A stretch of 64,000 nucleotides of DNA, from positions 1-64,000 of the forward strand of contig NZ_JWLL01000016.1 of assembly GCF_000814025.1 (NCBI RefSeq), given 5' to 3'. Position numbers and translations under genes: made by a program. The stretch is from Tateyamaria sp. ANG-S1 (lineage in GTDB: Bacteria > Pseudomonadota > Alphaproteobacteria > Rhodobacterales > Rhodobacteraceae). Position 1 is the first letter of the stretch. Each line of letters opens with the position of its first letter. The notes below the pieces were generated by a model. That model was not told the origin of the DNA and did not search any database. It was given only the letters and a program-made list of their open reading frames with translations. Positions 884 to 62,413 of this stretch are shown here, in pieces.

Positions 884-3181
884 ATGGAAAAGTTCGGCAA
901 GTCTCAACCCGTAAAACGCCGCGAGGACGTGCGCTTTTTGACCGGTGAGGGGCGCTATGTGGATGACATCGCCCCTGCGAATGCGTTGCAGTCTTTCGTG
1001 TTTCGGTCGCCTGTGGCCCATGCGGTGATCACCGAGCTCGACGTGAGCGATGCGCGGGAGGCGGAGGGTGTGCATGCCGTCTATACCCTTGCCGATCTGG
1101 AGGCCGCGGGGTTGAACGTTGCCATGCAAGGGGTGACTGTGAAGAACCGGGATGGGTCGGACGGGGCGGCCCCTGAGCGGCCCATTCTGGCGCGAGGCCG
1201 GTTGCGCTTTGTCGGTGAGCCGGTGGCTGTGATTGTCGCCGAGACGCTGGCGCAGGCGCGCGATGCGGCTGAGTTGATCATGCTCGATTACGACGACCTG
1301 CCGGCCAAGATGGATATGGCGGCGGGTGGAGAGACTGTGCATGCCGAAGCCCCGGACAACGTGGCCTATGACTGGCATATGGGGGATGAGGCGGCGACGC
1401 AGGCGGCATTCGACAAGGCTGCGCGGGTGGTGTCGCTGGATGTGGGTGATAACCGCATCATCGTGAATTCGATGGAGCCCCGTGGCTGTTATGCCGAGCC
1501 CGAGGGCGACCGGCTGCATGTGGCCATCAACGGGCAGGGCGTGTGGGGGCCGAAGGATCAGTTGGCGAAGGGGCTGAACATGCCTGCCGACGATATTCGT
1601 GTGACCAACCCGGACACCGGCGGTGGTTTCGGTATGAAGGGGATGATGTACCCGGAGTATTTTGTCGTCGCCCATGCCGCCCGCGCATTGAAGCGCCCGG
1701 TGCGCTGGATGTCGGAGCGGACGGAGGCCATGCTGTCGGACAATGCGGGGCGGGATCTGACCTCGCTGACCGAGTTGGCCTTTGACGCGGGTCACCGGAT
1801 CATTGGCTATCGCGTGTTCACCGAGGCGAATATGGGAGCCTATAACTCGCAATATGCGCAAGCCATTCAGACGCAACTGTTCAGCCGGGTGCTGACCGGG
1901 GTGTATGACATGCCTGCCGCTTACCTGCGTTCGGTCGGGTATTTCACCAACACGACGCAGGTGGATGCCTATCGCGGGGCGGGGCGGCCCGAGGCGATTT
2001 ACATTCTGGAGCGTGCGATGGACCGGGCCGCGCGTGAGCTGGGTGTGGATCCGCTGGAGCTGCGCCGCATCAACTTCATCAAGCCGGATCAGTTTCCGTA
2101 CAAGACGCTGGTGGACGAGACCTATGACGTGGGTGATTTCGACAAGGTGCTGACCCGTGCAGAGGCGGAGGCGGATATCCCCGGCTTCGCTGCGCGCAGG
2201 GCTGCCGACGCGGCCGAGGGCCGTATGCGGGGCCTGGGCCTGTGTTACTATATCGAAAGCATTTTGGGTGATCCTGCCGAGAGTGCGAAGGTTGAGTTTA
2301 CGGATGAGGGCCGTGTGAACATCTATGTCGGCACCCAATCGAACGGGCAGGGACATGAGACCGTCTATGCCCAGTTCCTGAGCGATCAGACCGGTATTCC
2401 GGTTGAGATGATCGATGTGGTGCAGGGCGACAGTGACCGCATCAAGCAGGGTGGCGGCACCGGTGGGTCGCGGTCTGTGACTGTGCAGAATACGGCCACT
2501 TTGGCGACTGTGTCCGCGATGACCGAGGCGTTTGTGGCGTTTCTGAGCGAGGAGGAGGGGGTGCCTGCCTCCGGGATTTCCTTTGATGATGAGCAGTTCC
2601 GGATCGAGGGGTCGAACATGACGCCCACGATGCTGGAGGTCGCTGATATGGCCCGCGAGAAGGGGCGCGAGGACCTGTTGGTGCATGAACAGCGCACCAC
2701 GCTGGAGGCGCGGAGCTTCCCCAACGGCTGTCATGTTTCAGAAGTTGTGATTGATCCCGACACGGGCGTTGTGACTGTGGATCGCTATGCGGTCGTCGAT
2801 GATTTTGGCAATCTTATCAATCCGATGCTGGCCGAAGGTCAGGTGCATGGCGGTGTTGTTCAGGGCATTGGGCAAGCGCTGACAGAGCATGTTCAGTTCG
2901 ATGAGGATGGCCAATTGCTCACGGCAACGTTCATGGACTATGCCTTGCCCCGTGCCGACGACGTTCCTTACATCGGATTCACGTCCGAGCCGGTGCCGTC
3001 TACTGCCAATGTCATGGGCATGAAGGGCTGTGGCGAGGCCGGGACGGTTGGAGCGTTGGCTGCGGTGTCCAATGCGGTGCAGGATGCGCTGTGGGAGCAC
3101 GGCGTGCGGCAGGTGGATATGCCATTCACACCGATGAAGGTTTGGGACTTGATGAGGGATGCTCGGATCGCGGCTGAATAA
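884..3181 (+). CDS. Xanthine dehydrogenase-family molybdopterin-binding subunit (CoxL-like, form II)
   Basis: Large, Mo-cofactor-binding subunit of a molybdenum hydroxylase, 765 residues, close to the usual length. The active-site loop reads AYRGAGR (residues 362-368). This is the form II signature; genuine CO dehydrogenases carry AYRCSFR. The catalytic Glu is in GCGEAG near residue 718. Family knowledge predicts hydroxylation of an organic substrate by a complex with an FAD subunit and a 2Fe-2S subunit. Neither partner gene is adjacent: upstream is a DUF3592-like gene and downstream a DUF2235 gene, so the partners must be encoded elsewhere or missing. An AGGAG sits about 8 bases before the ATG. 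The substrate cannot be read from sequence. Confidence 0.88.
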   Translation: MEKFGKSQPVKRREDVRFLTGEGRYVDDIAPANALQSFVFRSPVAHAVITELDVSDAREAEGVHAVYTLADLEAAGLNVAMQGVTVKNRDGSDGAAPERPILARGRLRFVGEPVAVIVAETLAQARDAAELIMLDYDDLPAKMDMAAGGETVHAEAPDNVAYDWHMGDEAATQAAFDKAARVVSLDVGDNRIIVNSMEPRGCYAEPEGDRLHVAINGQGVWGPKDQLAKGLNMPADDIRVTNPDTGGGFGMKGMMYPEYFVVAHAARALKRPVRWMSERTEAMLSDNAGRDLTSLTELAFDAGHRIIGYRVFTEANMGAYNSQYAQAIQTQLFSRVLTGVYDMPAAYLRSVGYFTNTTQVDAYRGAGRPEAIYILERAMDRAARELGVDPLELRRINFIKPDQFPYKTLVDETYDVGDFDKVLTRAEAEADIPGFAARRAADAAEGRMRGLGLCYYIESILGDPAESAKVEFTDEGRVNIYVGTQSNGQGHETVYAQFLSDQTGIPVEMIDVVQGDSDRIKQGGGTGGSRSVTVQNTATLATVSAMTEAFVAFLSEEEGVPASGISFDDEQFRIEGSNMTPTMLEVADMAREKGREDLLVHEQRTTLEARSFPNGCHVSEVVIDPDTGVVTVDRYAVVDDFGNLINPMLAEGQVHGGVVQGIGQALTEHVQFDEDGQLLTATFMDYALPRADDVPYIGFTSEPVPSTANVMGMKGCGEAGTVGALAAVSNAVQDALWEHGVRQVDMPFTPMKVWDLMRDARIAAE

Positions 3182-4250
3182 CGCCATTGCGCACTGGCTG
3201 CGCCGCCGCTTGCGCGCGGGTCTTCCCAATGTGGACCCGCCCGTGCGCGGGCAGACGATCCATGTCATCATCATTGATGGGACCATGTCGACCCTTGAGC
3301 CGGGGGACGAGACCAATGCCGGGCTGACGGCAAAGCTGCTGGAGGAGATGGGTACGGCCGTGTCGCTCTATTACGAGCCGGGGCTGCAATGGTCGCATTG
3401 GCGCAAGGCGGGTGACGTTGTCTTTGGCCGGGGGATCAACCGGCAGATCCGGCGGGCGTATGGGTATCTTGCGTCACGGTATAGGCCCGGGGACAAGGTG
3501 TTTTTGCTGGGGTACTCGCGAGGTGCTTATGCCGTGCGGTCACTGGCGGGGATCATTGATCGCGTTGGCCTGTTGAAGCCCGAGGCTGCGACCGAGCGGA
3601 ATATCCGGGATGTGTACCGCCATTATGAGTGCAGCCCTGATGGGGATGCGGCGCGAATTTTTGTACGCAACAATTGCCATGCGGCGGTCGAGATTGAGAT
3701 GATTGGCGTGTGGGACACGGTCAAGGCGCTGGGCCTGAACATGCCGTTCCTGTGGCGGCTGAGCGCGCCGCGTCACGCCTTTCACAACCATCAGCTGGGC
3801 AAGTCCGTGAAGCATGGATTTCACGCGGTGGCGCGGAATGAGACGCGCGTCGCCTATGCCCCTGTGATGTGGGACACGACCGAGGGCTGGGATGGGCATC
3901 TGGTGCAGATGTGGTTCCGGGGCGTGCATGGCGATGTTGGGGGGCATCTGTCGGGGCGGCGGGCGTCGCGCCCGCTCGCCAATATTCCGCTGGTCTGGAT
4001 GCTGGAGCAGGCGGAGCGCTGCGGGTTGCCCTTGCCCGAGGGCTGGGCAGGGCGGTTTGTGCAGGATGCCTCGGCCCCGTCGATGGGGACGTTTGTGGGT
4101 TTGGGGAAATGGTTTGTGACGCGGCGGCCCCGCCTGGTGGGCGTTGATCCGTCCGAGCGTGTGCATCCCACGGTGGCGCAGGCACCGCCGCCGCGGTCGT
4201 GGTCCGATTGGGTGGCCGATTTGCGTGGGACGGGGGCGGACGCTCTTTAG
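3159..4250 (+). CDS. DUF2235 alpha/beta hydrolase (Tle1-like phospholipase fold)
   Basis: 363 residues. The nucleophile elbow GYSRGAYAVRSLAG places the catalytic Ser at residue 120, and an N-terminal strand ending in IDGT matches the (F/I)DGT start of DUF2235 proteins. The family includes type VI secretion phospholipase effectors and many housekeeping hydrolases. No secretion gene is nearby, so a cytoplasmic lipid or ester hydrolase is as likely. The start overlaps the 3' end of the coxL-like gene by 23 bases, suggesting co-transcription. The stop codon lies inside a long hairpin shared with the convergent thioesterase gene. Confidence 0.8.
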   Translation: MLGSRLNNAIAHWLRRRLRAGLPNVDPPVRGQTIHVIIIDGTMSTLEPGDETNAGLTAKLLEEMGTAVSLYYEPGLQWSHWRKAGDVVFGRGINRQIRRAYGYLASRYRPGDKVFLLGYSRGAYAVRSLAGIIDRVGLLKPEAATERNIRDVYRHYECSPDGDAARIFVRNNCHAAVEIEMIGVWDTVKALGLNMPFLWRLSAPRHAFHNHQLGKSVKHGFHAVARNETRVAYAPVMWDTTEGWDGHLVQMWFRGVHGDVGGHLSGRRASRPLANIPLVWMLEQAERCGLPLPEGWAGRFVQDASAPSMGTFVGLGKWFVTRRPRLVGVDPSERVHPTVAQAPPPRSWSDWVADLRGTGADAL

Positions 4251-4286: not shown

Positions 4287-4769
4287 TCAGCGTAGTTTCA
4301 TGATGATGCAGGTGGTGGAGCCAGTGGCATAGAGTTTGCCGTCATCCACGCCGCGGATTTCGCCCGTGGCCACGCCCGTGCTGCGCCCGGCGTGGTCGAT
4401 GCGGCCCGTGCACGCGATTTCCATCCCCAGGGGGATGCCGCGGGTGATGTTGATCTTGTATTCCAGCGTTGTGTAGACGGACCCGGCGGGCACTTTGGTC
4501 ATCACCGCGCAGGCCATGGCGCTGTCGAGGAGCGTGCCGTACCAGCCGCCATGCACTGTGCCCATCGGGTTTGTCACGTCGAATTCGGGTGTGCCGCGGA
4601 AGGTGACTTCGCCATCTTGGACGGCATGCAGTGCGTAGCCCAGCGTATGGCCGATGGGGGGACCCGGTACTGTGCCGTCGAGGATGCCCTGCATGAAGGC
4701 GAGGCCGGACATGGAGAGAAGTTCGTCCTGGCTGGGCAGGTCGGCCATGGTTTGGGCGAGGCGGGGCAT
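4287..4769 (-). CDS. PaaI-family thioesterase
   Basis: 160-residue hot-dog-fold acyl-CoA thioesterase. The sequence MGTVHGGWYGTLLDSAMACAV carries the conserved HGG and D of the PaaI/4HBT active-site helix, followed by the usual YTTLEYKINITRGIP strand. It probably hydrolyses an aromatic or medium-chain acyl-CoA in the cytoplasm; the substrate is unknown. It is convergent with the DUF2235 gene and transcribed alone. Confidence 0.85.
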   Translation of the reverse strand: MPRLAQTMADLPSQDELLSMSGLAFMQGILDGTVPGPPIGHTLGYALHAVQDGEVTFRGTPEFDVTNPMGTVHGGWYGTLLDSAMACAVMTKVPAGSVYTTLEYKINITRGIPLGMEIACTGRIDHAGRSTGVATGEIRGVDDGKLYATGSTTCIIMKLR

Positions 4770-5111
4770 GGTAACGTCTCCGGGTCGTGATGCCGGGACG
4801 GTAGTGGGATCAGACCGATTGGTCTAGTGGGAAGTGGTGGCGGGGGCCAGCCCCCGTCGCCTTTGGCGACTCCCCCGGGATTTTTCGAAACAGGGAATTC
4901 GAACCGGTCCGCTTTAGCGGCAAAGGCCGTGGGGCGGCCTTTGAGGTGAGAATGGGCAGAGCCCAGGACCCGTCCGCGCAGCGGTAAACGCCGTGGGGTG
5001 GCGCCCTTCTCGCGCACCGCTGTACCGCACGCTTGTTGAGGTGAGAATGGGTGGGGCTGAGCTTCGGCGTGTGCGGGGTTGCGTGCCAGAGACGGTTTGT
5101 GAGGCTTGGGT
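4770..5111. other. Gene-less stretch with structured repeats
   Basis: No convincing coding frame is seen in 342 bases between the 5' end of the thioesterase gene and the 3' end of metF. It holds one full copy of a hairpin-rich dispersed repeat (4877-4972) and a decayed second unit (about 4975-5061) that keeps the AAACGCCG and GAGGTGAGAATGGG segments. Confidence 0.7.
4877..4972 (+). repeat. Dispersed structured repeat, copy R1
   Basis: Starts with GGGATTTTTCGAAACAGGG and continues through GGTCC, a perfect hairpin AAAGGCCG-TGGGG-CGGCCTTT (4922-4942), GAGGTGAGAATGGGC and a closing GGACC (4966-4970). The order of elements is the same as in the copies near 49.5 and 59.9 kb. The hairpin sequence differs but stays fully paired. 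Strand is arbitrary. A degenerate second unit follows directly. Confidence 0.75.
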
Positions 5112-5981
5112 CTACGCCACATTGCGCATCTGTGTTGGGCGGACGAGGCCCAAGGCGCGGCAAACCTTCAATGTGAGGTCGGGGCGGTTGAGCGTGTAGA
5201 AGTGTAATTTGTCCACGCCTTCGGAGATCAGAGTGTCGCAGAGGTCTGCGCAGTGCGTGAGGGCGAAGAGGTGCGCGCGGTCCTCGCGTTCGGCCCGGTC
5301 GAAGGCGGTGGACGTGGCAGCCGGGATGGGTGTGCCGCAGGTTTCTGCAAACTTGCGGGCACGCGCCCAGTTGGCGACGGGGAAGATGCCCGGCGTGATC
5401 GGGGCGGTGATGCCTGCGGCTGCGCAGGCGTCACGGAAGCGCAGGAAGCTGTCGGGCTCGAAAAAGAATTGGGTGATGGCTTCGGATGCGCCTGCGTCGA
5501 GCTTGGCCTTGAGCCAGTCGATGTTTTGTTGGGGCGAGGCGGCGTCCGGGTGGCTGTCGGGGTAGGCGCCCACGCGGATTGTGAACTGGTTCAGGTCGGC
5601 GAGGGCGCGGATCAGGTCGATGCTGTTGGCAAAGCCGTCTGGATGCGCCTCGAACGCGCCGCCGCCGGGGGCGTCGCCGCGCAGGGCCACGATGTCCTTG
5701 ACCCCGCTTTTGGCGTAGCGCTGGGCGGTGGCCAGCACGTCATCGCGGCTTTGGCCCGTGCAGGTGAGGTGGGCGGCGACCGGCAGGCCGGAGGTTTTGC
5801 GCAGGGTTTGGGCCGCTTCCTGCGTGAGCGATTGTGTTGTGCCGCCTGCGCCGTAGGTGACCGAGACGAAGCGGGGGTTCAGGGGCGCCAATGCCTGTAC
5901 CGTGTCCCAGAGGTGGAAGGACGCATCCAGCGACTTTGGAGGAAAGGTTTCGAACGACAGGGCGACGTCGGGTGTGGGCAT
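5112..5981 (-). CDS. metF: Methylenetetrahydrofolate reductase
   Basis: 289 residues, normal for bacterial MetF. This FAD enzyme reduces 5,10-methylene-THF to 5-methyl-THF, the methyl donor for methionine synthesis. Recognisable motifs are SFETFPPKS at the N-terminus (with the catalytic Glu), VSVTYGAGG, AHLTCTG and DIVALRGDAPGG, then the C-terminal FEPD and GIFPV segments. It is divergent from the metR-like gene. A perfect MetR-type box lies 46 bases upstream of its start. Confidence 0.95.
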   Translation of the reverse strand: MPTPDVALSFETFPPKSLDASFHLWDTVQALAPLNPRFVSVTYGAGGTTQSLTQEAAQTLRKTSGLPVAAHLTCTGQSRDDVLATAQRYAKSGVKDIVALRGDAPGGGAFEAHPDGFANSIDLIRALADLNQFTIRVGAYPDSHPDAASPQQNIDWLKAKLDAGASEAITQFFFEPDSFLRFRDACAAAGITAPITPGIFPVANWARARKFAETCGTPIPAATSTAFDRAEREDRAHLFALTHCADLCDTLISEGVDKLHFYTLNRPDLTLKVCRALGLVRPTQMRNVA

Positions 5982-49116: not shown

Positions 49117-49263
49117 GGGTGTCTCCTTTCATCCTTGCGTTGCGGCAAAGATAGGCGCGCGTCTGCGCACCGCAATTCGCGCTTGCGAACCGGGTCTGTG
49201 CAGGATTGCAGCACAAGATGTTGGGGTGAAGTGACGGGACCACCACAACCGTTTGGTTCTCTC

Positions 49264-49341
49264 ATTCCCGAGGACCTGTATATACAGGTGGGCGCCAGGT
49301 AACCGGACCAGGGCCCGGACAGAGCCAGCTCCCTCGGAATT
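49264..49341 (+). ncRNA. Possible structured RNA
   Basis: ATTCC and GAGG (49264-49273) pair with CCTC and GGAAT (49332-49340), leaving one bulged C. Inside are ACCTGTATATACAGGT (49274-49289), a perfect palindrome, and GC-rich segments GGCGCC and GGGCCC. No known RNA signature was recognised. Strand is arbitrary and this may only be a regulatory palindrome. Confidence 0.3.
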
Positions 49342-49454
49342 GCTTAAGGCCACCGGAATGCAACCTGTCACGAGAAGGGCAGAACCCGCCACGCGCTTAC
49401 ATAGGCGGGAGGGTGGCGTGCGGCAAGGCTTGCCGTTGGGGGCAGGTGGCTTAT

Positions 49455-49564
49455 CGGCCCTTCGGGGAGGATTTTTTTGAAACAGGGAATTCGGACCGGT
49501 CCGCGCCAGCGGCAAACACTCCGGGGGAGTGTTTGAGGTTCGAATGGGCGGAGCCCCGGACCGG
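49455..49564 (+). repeat. Dispersed structured repeat, copy R2
   Basis: Begins with GGCCCTTCGGGGAGGATTTTT and GAAACAGGGAATTCGG. CCGGTCCG (49496-49503) pairs with CGGACCGG (49557-49564). Inside are AAACACTCC-GGG-GGAGTGTTT (49514-49534) and the short hairpin GGGC-GGA-GCCC. Confidence 0.75.
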
Positions 49565-58827: not shown

Positions 58828-59724
58828 ATGGCCAACTACGCAAATCTTCCCGCACCCACGCCTGAGGGCGGTCTGAACCGCTATATGCAGGAAATCCGCA
58901 AGTTCCCGCTCTTGGAGCCGGAAGAGGAATACATGCTGGCGAAGGCCTGGGTCGAGAAAGAGGACACAGGTGCGGCCCACAAGATGGTAACGAGCCACCT
59001 GCGTCTCGCCGCCAAGATCGCCATGGGCTATCGCGGCTATGGTCTGCCGCAGGCCGAGGTAATTTCGGAAGCCAATGTGGGTCTGATGCAGGCCGTCAAA
59101 CGGTTTGATCCAGAGAAGGGCTTTCGCCTGGCCACCTATGCGATGTGGTGGATCAGGGCGTCGATCCAGGAATACATCCTGCGGTCTTGGTCGCTGGTGA
59201 AGCTGGGCACGACTTCGGCGCAGAAGAAGCTGTTCTTCAATCTGCGCAAGGCGAAGGCCAAGATCGGTGCACTGGAAGAGGGCGATTTGCGCCCCGAAAA
59301 CGTCAAGCAGATCGCGACCGATCTGGGCGTGACCGAAGACGAAGTCATCAGCATGAACCGGCGTCTGTCGGGGGGTGATGCGTCGTTGAACGCGACTGTC
59401 GGCTCCGAAGGCGAGGGGGCCATGCAGTGGCAGGACTGGCTTGAGGACGAGAGCGCCGACCAGGCGGGCGATTATGAGGCGCGCGACGAGTTAGAAGTGC
59501 GTCGTGAGATGCTGGCCGAGGCGCTAGACGTGCTGAACGAGCGCGAGAAGGACATTCTGACTCAGCGCCGGTTGGCCGATGCGCCGGTGACGCTGGAGGA
59601 TCTGTCGACCCAGTACAGCGTGAGCCGCGAGCGTATCCGCCAGATCGAGGTCCGTGCGTTTGAAAAGCTGCAGAAGAAGATGCGCGAGATTGCCAAGGGC
59701 AAAGGGTTGATGAGCTCTGCCTGA
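58828..59724 (+). CDS. rpoH: RNA polymerase sigma factor RpoH (sigma-32)
   Basis: 298 residues. The RpoH box reads QKKLFFNLRK (about residue 130), the signature separating it from the housekeeping sigma factor. Region 2 is VMQAVKRFDPEKGFRLATYAMWWIRASIQEYIL-like (GLMQAVKRFDPEKGFRLATY), and region 4 ends with LEDLSTQYSVSRERIRQIEVRAFEKLQ. It directs the heat-shock response. A GC hairpin and a T-run terminator follow. Confidence 0.95.
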   Translation: MANYANLPAPTPEGGLNRYMQEIRKFPLLEPEEEYMLAKAWVEKEDTGAAHKMVTSHLRLAAKIAMGYRGYGLPQAEVISEANVGLMQAVKRFDPEKGFRLATYAMWWIRASIQEYILRSWSLVKLGTTSAQKKLFFNLRKAKAKIGALEEGDLRPENVKQIATDLGVTEDEVISMNRRLSGGDASLNATVGSEGEGAMQWQDWLEDESADQAGDYEARDELEVRREMLAEALDVLNEREKDILTQRRLADAPVTLEDLSTQYSVSRERIRQIEVRAFEKLQKKMREIAKGKGLMSSA

Positions 59725-59858: not shown

Positions 59859-59954
59859 AGGATTTTTTTGAAACAGGGAATTCGGACCGGTCCGCGTAGC
59901 GGCAAACACTCTGGGGGAGTGTTTGAGGTCCGAATGGGCGGAGCCCCGGACCGG
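59859..59954 (+). repeat. Dispersed structured repeat, copy R3
   Basis: GATTTTTTTGAAACAGGG then CCGGTCCG (59887-59894) pairing with CGGACCGG (59947-59954). The inner hairpin AAACACTC-TGGGG-GAGTGTTT (59904-59924) has the same loop as R1 but four changed base pairs. Confidence 0.75.
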
Positions 59955-60067: not shown

Positions 60068-61243
60068 TCAGTTCAGCCGTGCCCGCAGGACGCGCACCAT
60101 GTTGCCGCCCATGACTTTCGCGATGGTCGGCTCATCCAGCCCAGCGTCGATCAGTGCGTGGGTGAGGCTGGCGAGTTTGGAGGTGTCGAAGGCTGTTGTG
60201 ACCGACCCGTCGAAGTCGGAGCCGAGAGAGACGTGATCCGCGCCCACGGTGTCGATGGCCTGCACGATCATGGCGGCGATGGCCTCGGGCGTGGCATCGC
60301 GGCAGAGGATGTCGCCCCAATAGCCCAGCCCGATCACGCCGCCGGTGGAGGCGACGGCCTGCATCAGATCGTCTTCGAAATTGCGGGTGACGGGACAGAA
60401 GCCGTGCAGGCCGGTGTGGCTGACGATCACCGGCATGTCCGTCATGGCGATGGCGTCGCGGGCCACGGCAGGGCTGGCATGGGCGAGGTCGAGGACCATG
60501 CCGCGGGCTTCGATTTCCGCCACCACCGCGCGCCCGAAGTCGGTCAGCCCCATGTCGCGCGTGCCGTGAAGCGAGCCGCCGAGTTCGTTGTCGAAGAAGT
60601 GTTGCAGGCCGATGATGCGGTGGCCCGCCGCCTCGATCCGGTCGAGATTGGCCATGTCCCCTTCGAGCGCGTGGGCCCCTTCAATGCCGAGCAGGCCACC
60701 CACAGCCTTGCTGCCGTTTGCGCGGGCGGTGAGGTGGGCGTCAAGCTCTGCTTGCGAGGTGATGACTGTCAGCCGGTCGGGCACGCGGGCGGCGACCTTG
60801 TGCAGCCGTTCGGCCTGGTAGATCGCCCGTTCGGCCAGTGACCCCCAGGTGCGGGGCGGCCACATCTGACCGATGGCGAGCGGCGTGATGTTGTCGAAGG
60901 TTTCGGCCGAGTTTGCCTCGTAATTCTGGCCTGCGGGGGACTTGGTCACGGCGGCGAAGACCTGGAGCGCCACGCCTCCTTCGATCAGGCGCGGGATGTC
61001 GACATGGCCCCGGTCGGCGCGGTGTTCGATACTGCGTTTCCACAGGAGGCTGTCGGCGTGCCAGTCGCCCACGACCAGCGTGTCGTGCAGCGATTGGGCG
61101 GTGTCGGAGACGGGGTAGGGATCGTGCGGGACAACGGCATTGCGCCCTTTTTCGACGTAGCCCGGGGCGAAGGTCAGGAAGGCGGCGATGGCGGCCGCCA
61201 GGACGATGCCAAGTCCGATGAGACCGCGTTTGATCCAGCGCAT
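60068..61243 (-). CDS. Membrane dipeptidase (M19 renal dipeptidase family)
   Basis: 391 residues. An N-terminal anchor (LIGLGIVLAAAIAAFLTFAPGY) is followed by the amidohydrolase barrel. Metal-binding and catalytic motifs are DWHADSLLW, GLLGIEGAHAL, VLDLAHASP, VSHTGLHGF and SLGSDFDGS. It hydrolyses dipeptides at the periplasmic face. It is alone on this strand, divergent from the Gfo/Idh gene. Confidence 0.92.
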   Translation of the reverse strand: MRWIKRGLIGLGIVLAAAIAAFLTFAPGYVEKGRNAVVPHDPYPVSDTAQSLHDTLVVGDWHADSLLWKRSIEHRADRGHVDIPRLIEGGVALQVFAAVTKSPAGQNYEANSAETFDNITPLAIGQMWPPRTWGSLAERAIYQAERLHKVAARVPDRLTVITSQAELDAHLTARANGSKAVGGLLGIEGAHALEGDMANLDRIEAAGHRIIGLQHFFDNELGGSLHGTRDMGLTDFGRAVVAEIEARGMVLDLAHASPAVARDAIAMTDMPVIVSHTGLHGFCPVTRNFEDDLMQAVASTGGVIGLGYWGDILCRDATPEAIAAMIVQAIDTVGADHVSLGSDFDGSVTTAFDTSKLASLTHALIDAGLDEPTIAKVMGGNMVRVLRARLN

Positions 61244-62380: not shown

Positions 62381-62413
62381 CGCCCCTTCGGGGAGGATTT
62401 TTTGAAACAGGGA
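62381..62413 (+). terminator. Terminator-like fragment of the dispersed repeat (R4)
   Basis: CCCCTTCGGGG, then AGGATTTTTTGAAACAGGGA. It is the left end of the same repeat found at R1-R3, without the GC hairpins. It forms a hairpin plus T-run right after the Gfo/Idh stop. Confidence 0.65.

Follow-up and report, generated by a model that had tools for sequence, protein, structure and literature searches.

The window analysed here, the first 64 kb of a contig from a Tateyamaria genome of 4.43 Mb (G000), carries three copies of a dispersed structured repeat which we read, with a probability of about 55%, as a REP-like non-autonomous mobile element of Rhodobacterales acting as folded single-stranded DNA. 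The repeat is about 63–80 bases long; on one strand, a stem P1 (9–10 bp) encloses P2 and P3 and is followed by P4 (GGGC GGA GCCC). P3 has 8–10 bp with AAA..TTT at its foot, and P2 is missing from the short form. Copies are placed at pre-existing GRG-TGA gene ends, with the stop codon in the 5' arm of P1, and in Tateyamaria behind a tail motif. The repeat looks like a so far undescribed one akin to REP repeats; no description was found in the literature by title and start of abstract, a search outside which most subscription journals lie.

The three copies of the earlier note are present, all on the forward strand, and are matched by a model (R1) that was built, together with its alignment, from 16 copies in G000 (Table 1). 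R1 finds 17 confident copies at 15 sites in this genome (E <= 1e-3), a number that excludes chance. P3 reads AAAGGCCG-TGGGG-CGGCCTTT in copy 1 and AAACACTC-TGGGG-GAGTGTTT in copy 3, with four pairs differing on both sides and a common loop, exactly as first reported. Folded unaided as RNA, copies 1, 2, and 3 adopt P1-P2-P3-P4 (z -2.9, -3.0, and -4.2 vs. shuffles); folded as DNA, they reach z -4.0, -3.9, and -6.1. Copy 1 is antisense to the two genes that flank it, a thioesterase gene (4287-4769, -) and an MTHFR gene (5112-5981, -); the neighbours of copy 3 are a sigma-70-family gene (58828-59724, +) and an M19 peptidase gene (60068-61243, -). A predicted protein near copy 1 (3159-4250, +) carries a phospholipase catalytic domain of the T6SS Tle1-like type. 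A 6S RNA match (49233-49388, -), with a pirin gene on one side and copy 2 some 100 bases away on the other, scores 47.8 bits, just above the gathering score of 46.4.

Table 1 Positions of the repeat copies, their stems, and the preceding tail motifs in the window.
Feature	Position	Strand	Remarks
Copy 1 (long form)	4896-4966	+	model R1 match, 81.3 bits
Copy 1, P1	4897-4905/4945-4953		tandem G-A mismatch inside
Copy 1, P2	4909-4912/4917-4920		
Copy 1, P3	4922-4929/4935-4942		
Copy 1, P4	4954-4957/4961-4964		
Decayed second unit behind copy 1	4961-5061	+	weak: E 0.36, 20.6 bits, below confidence
Copy 2 (long form)	49488-49558	+	model R1 match, 92.8 bits
Copy 2, P3	49514-49521/49527-49534		
Copy 2, P4	49546-49556		
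Copy 3 (long form)	59879-59948	+	model R1 match, 97.4 bits
Copy 3, P3	59904-59911/59917-59924		
Copy 3, P4	59936-59946		
Tail before copy 1	4879-4895	+	GATTTTTCGAAACAGGG; separate motif, behind GC-rich hairpin
Tail before copy 2	49470-49487	+	GATTTTTTTGAAACAGGG
Tail before copy 3	59861-59878	+	GATTTTTTTGAAACAGGG

Beyond the window, R1 matches 18 of 20 genomes of the genus (its own included) and 98 of 295 of the family. A covariance-model search of the kind suggested earlier extends the repeat, with model R2, to 221 of 390 genomes and 88 of 139 genera in a sample of the order; other families of the order are hardly tested by this count, because every genome listed belongs to one family. In a sample of the class, seven of 385 genomes match, four of them in the same family; the three matches outside it are weak (E 6e-5 to 7.5e-5); judged by eye, two of them seem genuine, and the third (L320) lies in a reading frame. 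As far as sampled, the repeat is nearly confined to one family. One exact match was found in viral contigs. Forty-six plasmid records, mostly of Pseudosulfitobacter pseudonitzschiae, give partial matches, none covering 80% of the query (best 67% of 111 bases); in the records listed, these matches lie under an annotated DUF6330 or hypothetical gene.

The central claim of the earlier note, a dispersed structured element in which pairing is kept while bases change, is supported. In the R1 alignment, 91.1% of cells are paired, against 33–44% with one arm slid. Among relatives (131 matches, 129 distinct rows), 92.1% are paired and 23 of 25 pairs have changed on both sides, with 473 double-change cells vs. 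111 shuffled and 43–82 slid. A hold-out set of 63 copies (62 distinct rows) from 44 genomes outside the building of model R2 gives 93.5% paired, a percentage biased upward because the copies came from the top of the R2 match list, with 19 of 25 pairs double-changed and 261 cells vs. 76 shuffled and 24–62 slid. The structure pairs also stand out against a tree-aware null, modelled on the idea of R-scape, with the tree from the same alignment and the alignments fitted to the structure: 14 of 2278 column pairs reach E <= 0.05, 12 of them within the 25 structure pairs, the outermost P1 pair (2-57) included. Of the remaining two, 25-47 extends P3 and 23-47 does not fit; the other 13 structure pairs are above E 0.05. 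The tree model underlying this test is itself broken, since stems are exchanged as blocks between copies.

That exchange is seen at sites shared between genomes. The site pairs used were those among the matches listed with both flanks matched beside the element, plus L085/L114 with one flank; many flank matches are composite repeats or families, not the same site, and were left out. The differences between copy 1 and its ortholog in G006 (L109; flanks 94% identical) are one base in the P3 loop, a C-to-T change that makes a G-T pair, and one base in the P4 loop. L085 and L114 carry a nearly identical short form. At another site (L072, L091; flanks 93% identical), G000 has one unit and G006 four. 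L073 and L107 have P1 and P2 in common; one of them has AAACACTC/GAGTGTTT as its P3, the other AAATGCCG/CGGCATTT, and there are two differences at junctions. L077, compared with L092, is mixed, AAACGCCG facing GAGTGTTT so that either type supplies one half; in the second unit of L107, a long-form 5' half is joined to a short-form 3' half, with the pairing broken. The site of copy 3 holds a short form (AATTTGCAGGC..GCCTGCAAAT) in G003, where this stretch and the upstream flank are 90% identical and some 0.8 kb of other sequence intervenes before the downstream match begins again; in G017, the tail is present with no element (by eye). None of the loci compared gave a clean occupied/empty pair from close relatives. 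Orthologous pairs differ by whole stems, and half-way copies exist, so stems move as blocks and stepwise compensation is unsupported. The covariation therefore stems at least in part from exchange between copies or from one arm being copied from the other.

Could mutation alone maintain the pairing? In quasi-palindrome correction, the arms of a hairpin template each other during replication; if copies also recombined, paired stems would persist with no function at all. Such an origin would accommodate the block changes beside unchanged neighbours (L073/L107), the half-exchanged stems (L077, second unit of L107), the changes in P3 (186 cells changed on both sides vs. six on one side and 20 unpaired), and the lack of a wobble preference described below. 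As a full account it is nevertheless quite improbable: neutral templating does not predict the near constancy of P4 and of the AAA/TTT foot of P3 among the aligned copies, and the site preference is sharp.

If a sense RNA were selected, G-T should far exceed A-C. The counts are 45 to 39 in alignment A4 and 32 to 17, leaning to G-T, in alignment A5; outside P1, they are 15 to 9 and 9 to 5, respectively. A tRNA control (11 parsed tRNAs, one unparsed) gives 14 to 1, from which the repeat outside P1 differs weakly (Fisher p 0.057 and 0.080). G-A and A-G mismatches, mainly the tandem G-A in GTGAGC/GCGAAC, far exceed T-C and C-T (147 vs. 13); the strand that folds, be it DNA or RNA, may therefore be the sense strand. 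The earlier note had seen here the product of selection on a structured RNA; the kept pairing stands, and RNA selection as its cause is unsupported as stated, because stems are replaced as blocks, half-replaced stems exist, and G-T is not preferred over A-C.

The copies also have a preferred position relative to genes. With an ORF of at least 150 codons taken as the upstream gene, 26 of 82 copies from outside the genus have a stop codon between -5 and +10 of the model start, as do seven of 47 in the genus and 20 of 63 in the hold-out set, 19 of the last exactly at +2; the other-strand control, in the same bin relative to the 3' end, gives one, zero, and zero. The remaining copies, 56 (of 82) from outside the genus and 43 (of 63) in the hold-out set, lie away from any detectable stop. 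At +2, positions 2–5 of P1 are the last base of the final sense codon and the stop codon. All 20 upstream proteins scanned have a Pfam match; among them are GMP synthase, release factor 3, LepA, a sucC-type CoA ligase, glycyl-tRNA synthetase beta, carbamoyl-phosphate synthase, a semialdehyde dehydrogenase, and a 2OG-Fe(II) oxygenase, and frr was recognised by sequence. At ten loci in seven genera, the repeat sits at the 2OG-oxygenase end SFNYxW(E/G).

Gene strand was called by coding bias (seven of seven window genes as expected), which replaced a count of long-ORF orientation because antisense frames are long in GC-rich DNA. Where it could be called, the upstream gene lies on the strand of the element for 32 of 44 copies in the genus, 47 of 57 elsewhere, and 29 of 34 in the hold-out set, with 20, 25, and 29 unclear or short cases, respectively, set aside; divergent gaps hold three, two, and one. 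In G000 itself, only 11 of 17 copies have a same-strand upstream gene.

Orthologous gene ends were inspected in the best 30 of 99 genomes with a match to the 2OG-oxygenase and the best 30 of 79 with a match to sucC. The repeat is present at two of 29 oxygenase loci with the gene end found (30 fetched, by eye), one being the genome of the query itself, and at one of 30 sucC ends. The ends AAGGGGTGA of sucC (L397, L404, L415, L419) and TGGGAGTGA of the 2OG-oxygenase (L369, L373, L376, L377, L379) occur without the element, so the stops are native to the host genes. An ancestral cis-regulator fixed at each gene is unlikely given these numbers.

These placements bear on a second explanation, in which the repeat is a cis-acting element at the 3' end of mRNA: the ribosome would open a stop codon sequestered in P1, and the RNA would block 3'-5' decay or stall termination, as has been reported for E. 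coli REPs within 15 nt of a stop codon; the pairing would then be maintained by selection on the RNA. It would explain why the stop lies inside P1 at one exact position, why copies stand in sense orientation behind genes, why P1 at frr takes in the last codon together with the stop and changes in step from one species to another (see below), and why pair 2-57 covaries. We hold it to be somewhat unlikely, as the near balance of G-T and A-C in alignment A4 is unlike that of tRNA, the element is missing from most orthologous gene ends, and 13 of the 15 sites in G000 lie behind a tail and not at a stop codon.

The closest named sequences to the frr gene of G000 come from Tateyamaria. Of 80 named frr loci (140 bases, by eye), seven have at the stop either the element or a decayed version of it (L232, L233, L234, L236, L237, L246, and, in tandem, L297); in many others, frr passes directly into the next gene. 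Further sites were compared in the window genome, L106, L152, and L220. P1 extends across the last codon and stop of frr as TTTAACGACC/GGTCGTTAAA in G000, TTTGACACTC/GAGTGTCAAA in L232, and TCTAATGA/TCATTAGA in L237; another intact pair, also running through the stop, is TTTGAAGGGCC/GGCCCTTCAAA. The host ends at frr are GTT-TGA, GTT-TAA, and GTC-TAA, and long and short forms alternate among species. Exceptions are L236 and L246, with an imperfect P1, and L220, with the usual GCGAAC arm. Behind frr in L106, after position 1565, a unit resembling P4 (GGACCAAAGGGCCGGAGCCCCGG-like) is repeated in a short tandem array. Outside frr, P1 is GTTTAGCGCC/GGCGCTAAA at a branched-chain permease gene ending in GTT-TAG (L331) and CTTCTAGCC/GGCTGGAAG at an end in TTC-TAG (L163).

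At frr and at one branched-chain permease gene, P1 pairs with the stop region of the host; this speaks against the mobile reading in its simplest form, since mere insertion would be insufficient. A target-matched stem, in which the 3' arm of P1 is complementary to the host's last codon base, its stop codon, and the bases behind it and is re-matched wherever these differ, would imply single-strand insertion or maintenance guided by pairing over 9–10 bp, or an RNA that senses the stop codon; we regard it as unlikely. In its favour, the outermost P1 pair covaries although, in copies at stop codons, its 5' base is that of the upstream gene; the frr cases, L331, and L163 also speak for it. Against it, a G-A/A-G tandem stands at the stop in place of Watson-Crick pairs in 49 of 118 lettered rows, and L329 and L144 end in TAA, yet their arms match incompletely.

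In Tateyamaria, the element mostly follows the tail. The pattern GATTTTT..GAAACAGGG, taken in the earlier note as the head of the repeat, is a separate motif: it occurs at 59 places in G000 (reversed-pattern control, 0), of which 11 are directly followed by a confident copy (coordinates compared by hand). Of the 15 repeat sites, 13 lie behind a hairpin-plus-T-run tail, two of them with a tail variant. By eye, the tail sits behind several classes of GC-rich hairpin and is terminator-like. At these 59 places, e.g., at 62396-62412 of the window, the tail GATTTTTTTGAAACAGGGAAG is nearly letter-for-letter constant behind hairpins of several classes. The location of the copies in intergenic gaps was described correctly; their position next to terminators is a judgement by eye, and a simple terminator scan of 4700-5200 called none. 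The repeat itself is rejected as an intrinsic terminator, with no T-run after P4 by eye. That ordinary intrinsic terminators or chance palindromes in GC-rich DNA explain the whole pattern is hardly credible: the neighbouring tail is terminator-like and the region GC-rich, but the aligned rows lack a T-run behind P4, that scan found no terminator, and matches are as sparse in the class sample as given above.

The supposed conserved closing arm CGGACCGG likewise falls away. After P4 in copies 2 and 3, it matches the start of a further tandem unit of 63–64 bases (L091, L073, L107), and it is not a conserved arm because it is missing after P4 in L071, L077, L080, and L081 (by eye). Other arrangements were also seen: in three Tateyamaria genomes (L118, L119, L120), a larger composite has two repeat copies about 215 bases apart and a common GTCGGCGCTGGCACGGCGGCCTTTGGC end; L142 (1349-1875) holds a four-copy tandem array with a period of 152 bases, whose unit takes in neighbouring sequence; and in G001 (L116), a short-form copy lies apparently inside a protein-coding frame (by eye).

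Among known systems, to which the comparison extends as far as the accessible portions of the cited papers describe them, REPs are closest. They are short dispersed palindromes, mostly downstream of genes, often supply stop codons to flanking ORFs [PMC3733652], and are processed as a folded single strand by TnpA-REP [PMC3733652, PMC8266576]. The present repeat resembles REP/BIME with TnpA-REP (RAYT) as a short dispersed palindrome mostly behind genes. Unlike the GTAG REP, a single palindrome of 20–40 bases, it has four helices in 63–80 bases and no GTAG tag, its 5' ends being mostly GGTGA, AGTGA, AGTTC, or AATTC (aligned rows, by eye); unlike the RAYT system, it has no Y1 transposase in G000 and no association with one in the family sample. 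REPs of E. coli within 15 nt of a stop are reported to act on translation [Liang, Rudd, Deutscher 2015, via PMC12306157, PMC5082802]; a stable structure at the ORF end in sense orientation is common to both, whereas the present repeat holds the stop codon itself inside its outer stem. CGTC-tagged REPs, as described in the portion of PMC3733652 available, are mostly alphaproteobacterial, with a CGTC tag directly before stems of 8–9 bp, a CCA-like tail, an A/T foot, loops of 4–5, and apparently no dedicated transposase. The present repeat is similar in taxon, stem length, A/T foot, loop size, and the lack of an apparent dedicated transposase; unlike them, it appears to have no CGTC directly before the stem, and it has the additional P1, P2, and P4. 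By eye, the letters CGTC are confined to some short forms, where they stand in the P1/P3 bulge; the long form of the window lacks them.

In IS608 (IS200/IS605 family), a tetranucleotide target pairs with the strand of the element, a changed element leads to a changed target, and the TnpA is known [PMC5934647]. Target bases pairing with the element's own strand are a resemblance only, as the present pairing extends up to 9–10 bp and the enzyme is only putative. Br-REP1 and Br-REP2 of Bradyrhizobium are dispersed palindromes in 3'-UTRs, Br-REP1 lying between two other palindromes [PMC5082802]; they share with the present repeat the alphaproteobacterial hosts and the position 3' of genes, and differ in consensus and genera (Br-REP1 core compared, as printed in the part of the paper at hand). 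The HRC-8-4 motif of Rhodobacterales, a terminator-like stem with a U-run mainly between ccoP and ccoG [PMC8632094], is likewise structured and intergenic in the same order; unlike it, going by the accessible text, the present repeat is dispersed over many genes. Rfam 15 has no family over the three window copies, and in L142, L119, L122, and L069, its three matches at E <= 5 overlap no copy. The core sites of attC are RYYYAAC and GTTRRRY; GGCAAAC..GTTTGAG fits neither on inspection of the alignment, and an attC site was rejected. Compared with a classical MITE, which has inverted termini and a duplicated target, the P1 arms are inverted but P4 follows them.

For the REP-like mobile element, the following course is proposed. 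Copies would spread as hairpin-forming single-stranded DNA handled in trans by a putative enzyme; insertions would survive where they spare genes, either by preserving the stop codon or by falling behind a terminator-like hairpin. Stems would stay paired if unfolded copies were not recognised and arms were exchanged or re-copied as units. Where transcribed, a copy would give the message a stem-loop at its 3' end, which might influence decay or the termination of translation. Mobilisation by a RAYT was considered as the present-day explanation and rejected: the Y1 transposase domain (PF01797) is absent from G000 and was matched in four of 20 genomes of the genus, and across 295 family genomes, the element is found in 13 of 30 with Y1 and 85 of 265 others (Fisher p 0.22; overlap counted by hand). 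The mobile reading is also weakened by the many copies away from a detectable stop, by the low share of same-strand upstream genes in G000, by the antisense position of copy 1, and by the excess of G-A/A-G, through which one strand may matter; its wobble argument has a small tRNA control and a lean to G-T in alignment A5 to contend with.

For the family, the result would be a set of structured repeats, spread family-wide, on the stop codons of core genes such as frr, guaA, sucC, the release-factor-3 gene, glyS, and lepA. Clean covariation can travel as blocks between repeat copies, which advises caution in reading covariation as proof of an RNA. If the target-matched stem were true, it would point to a mechanism of dispersal guided by pairing.
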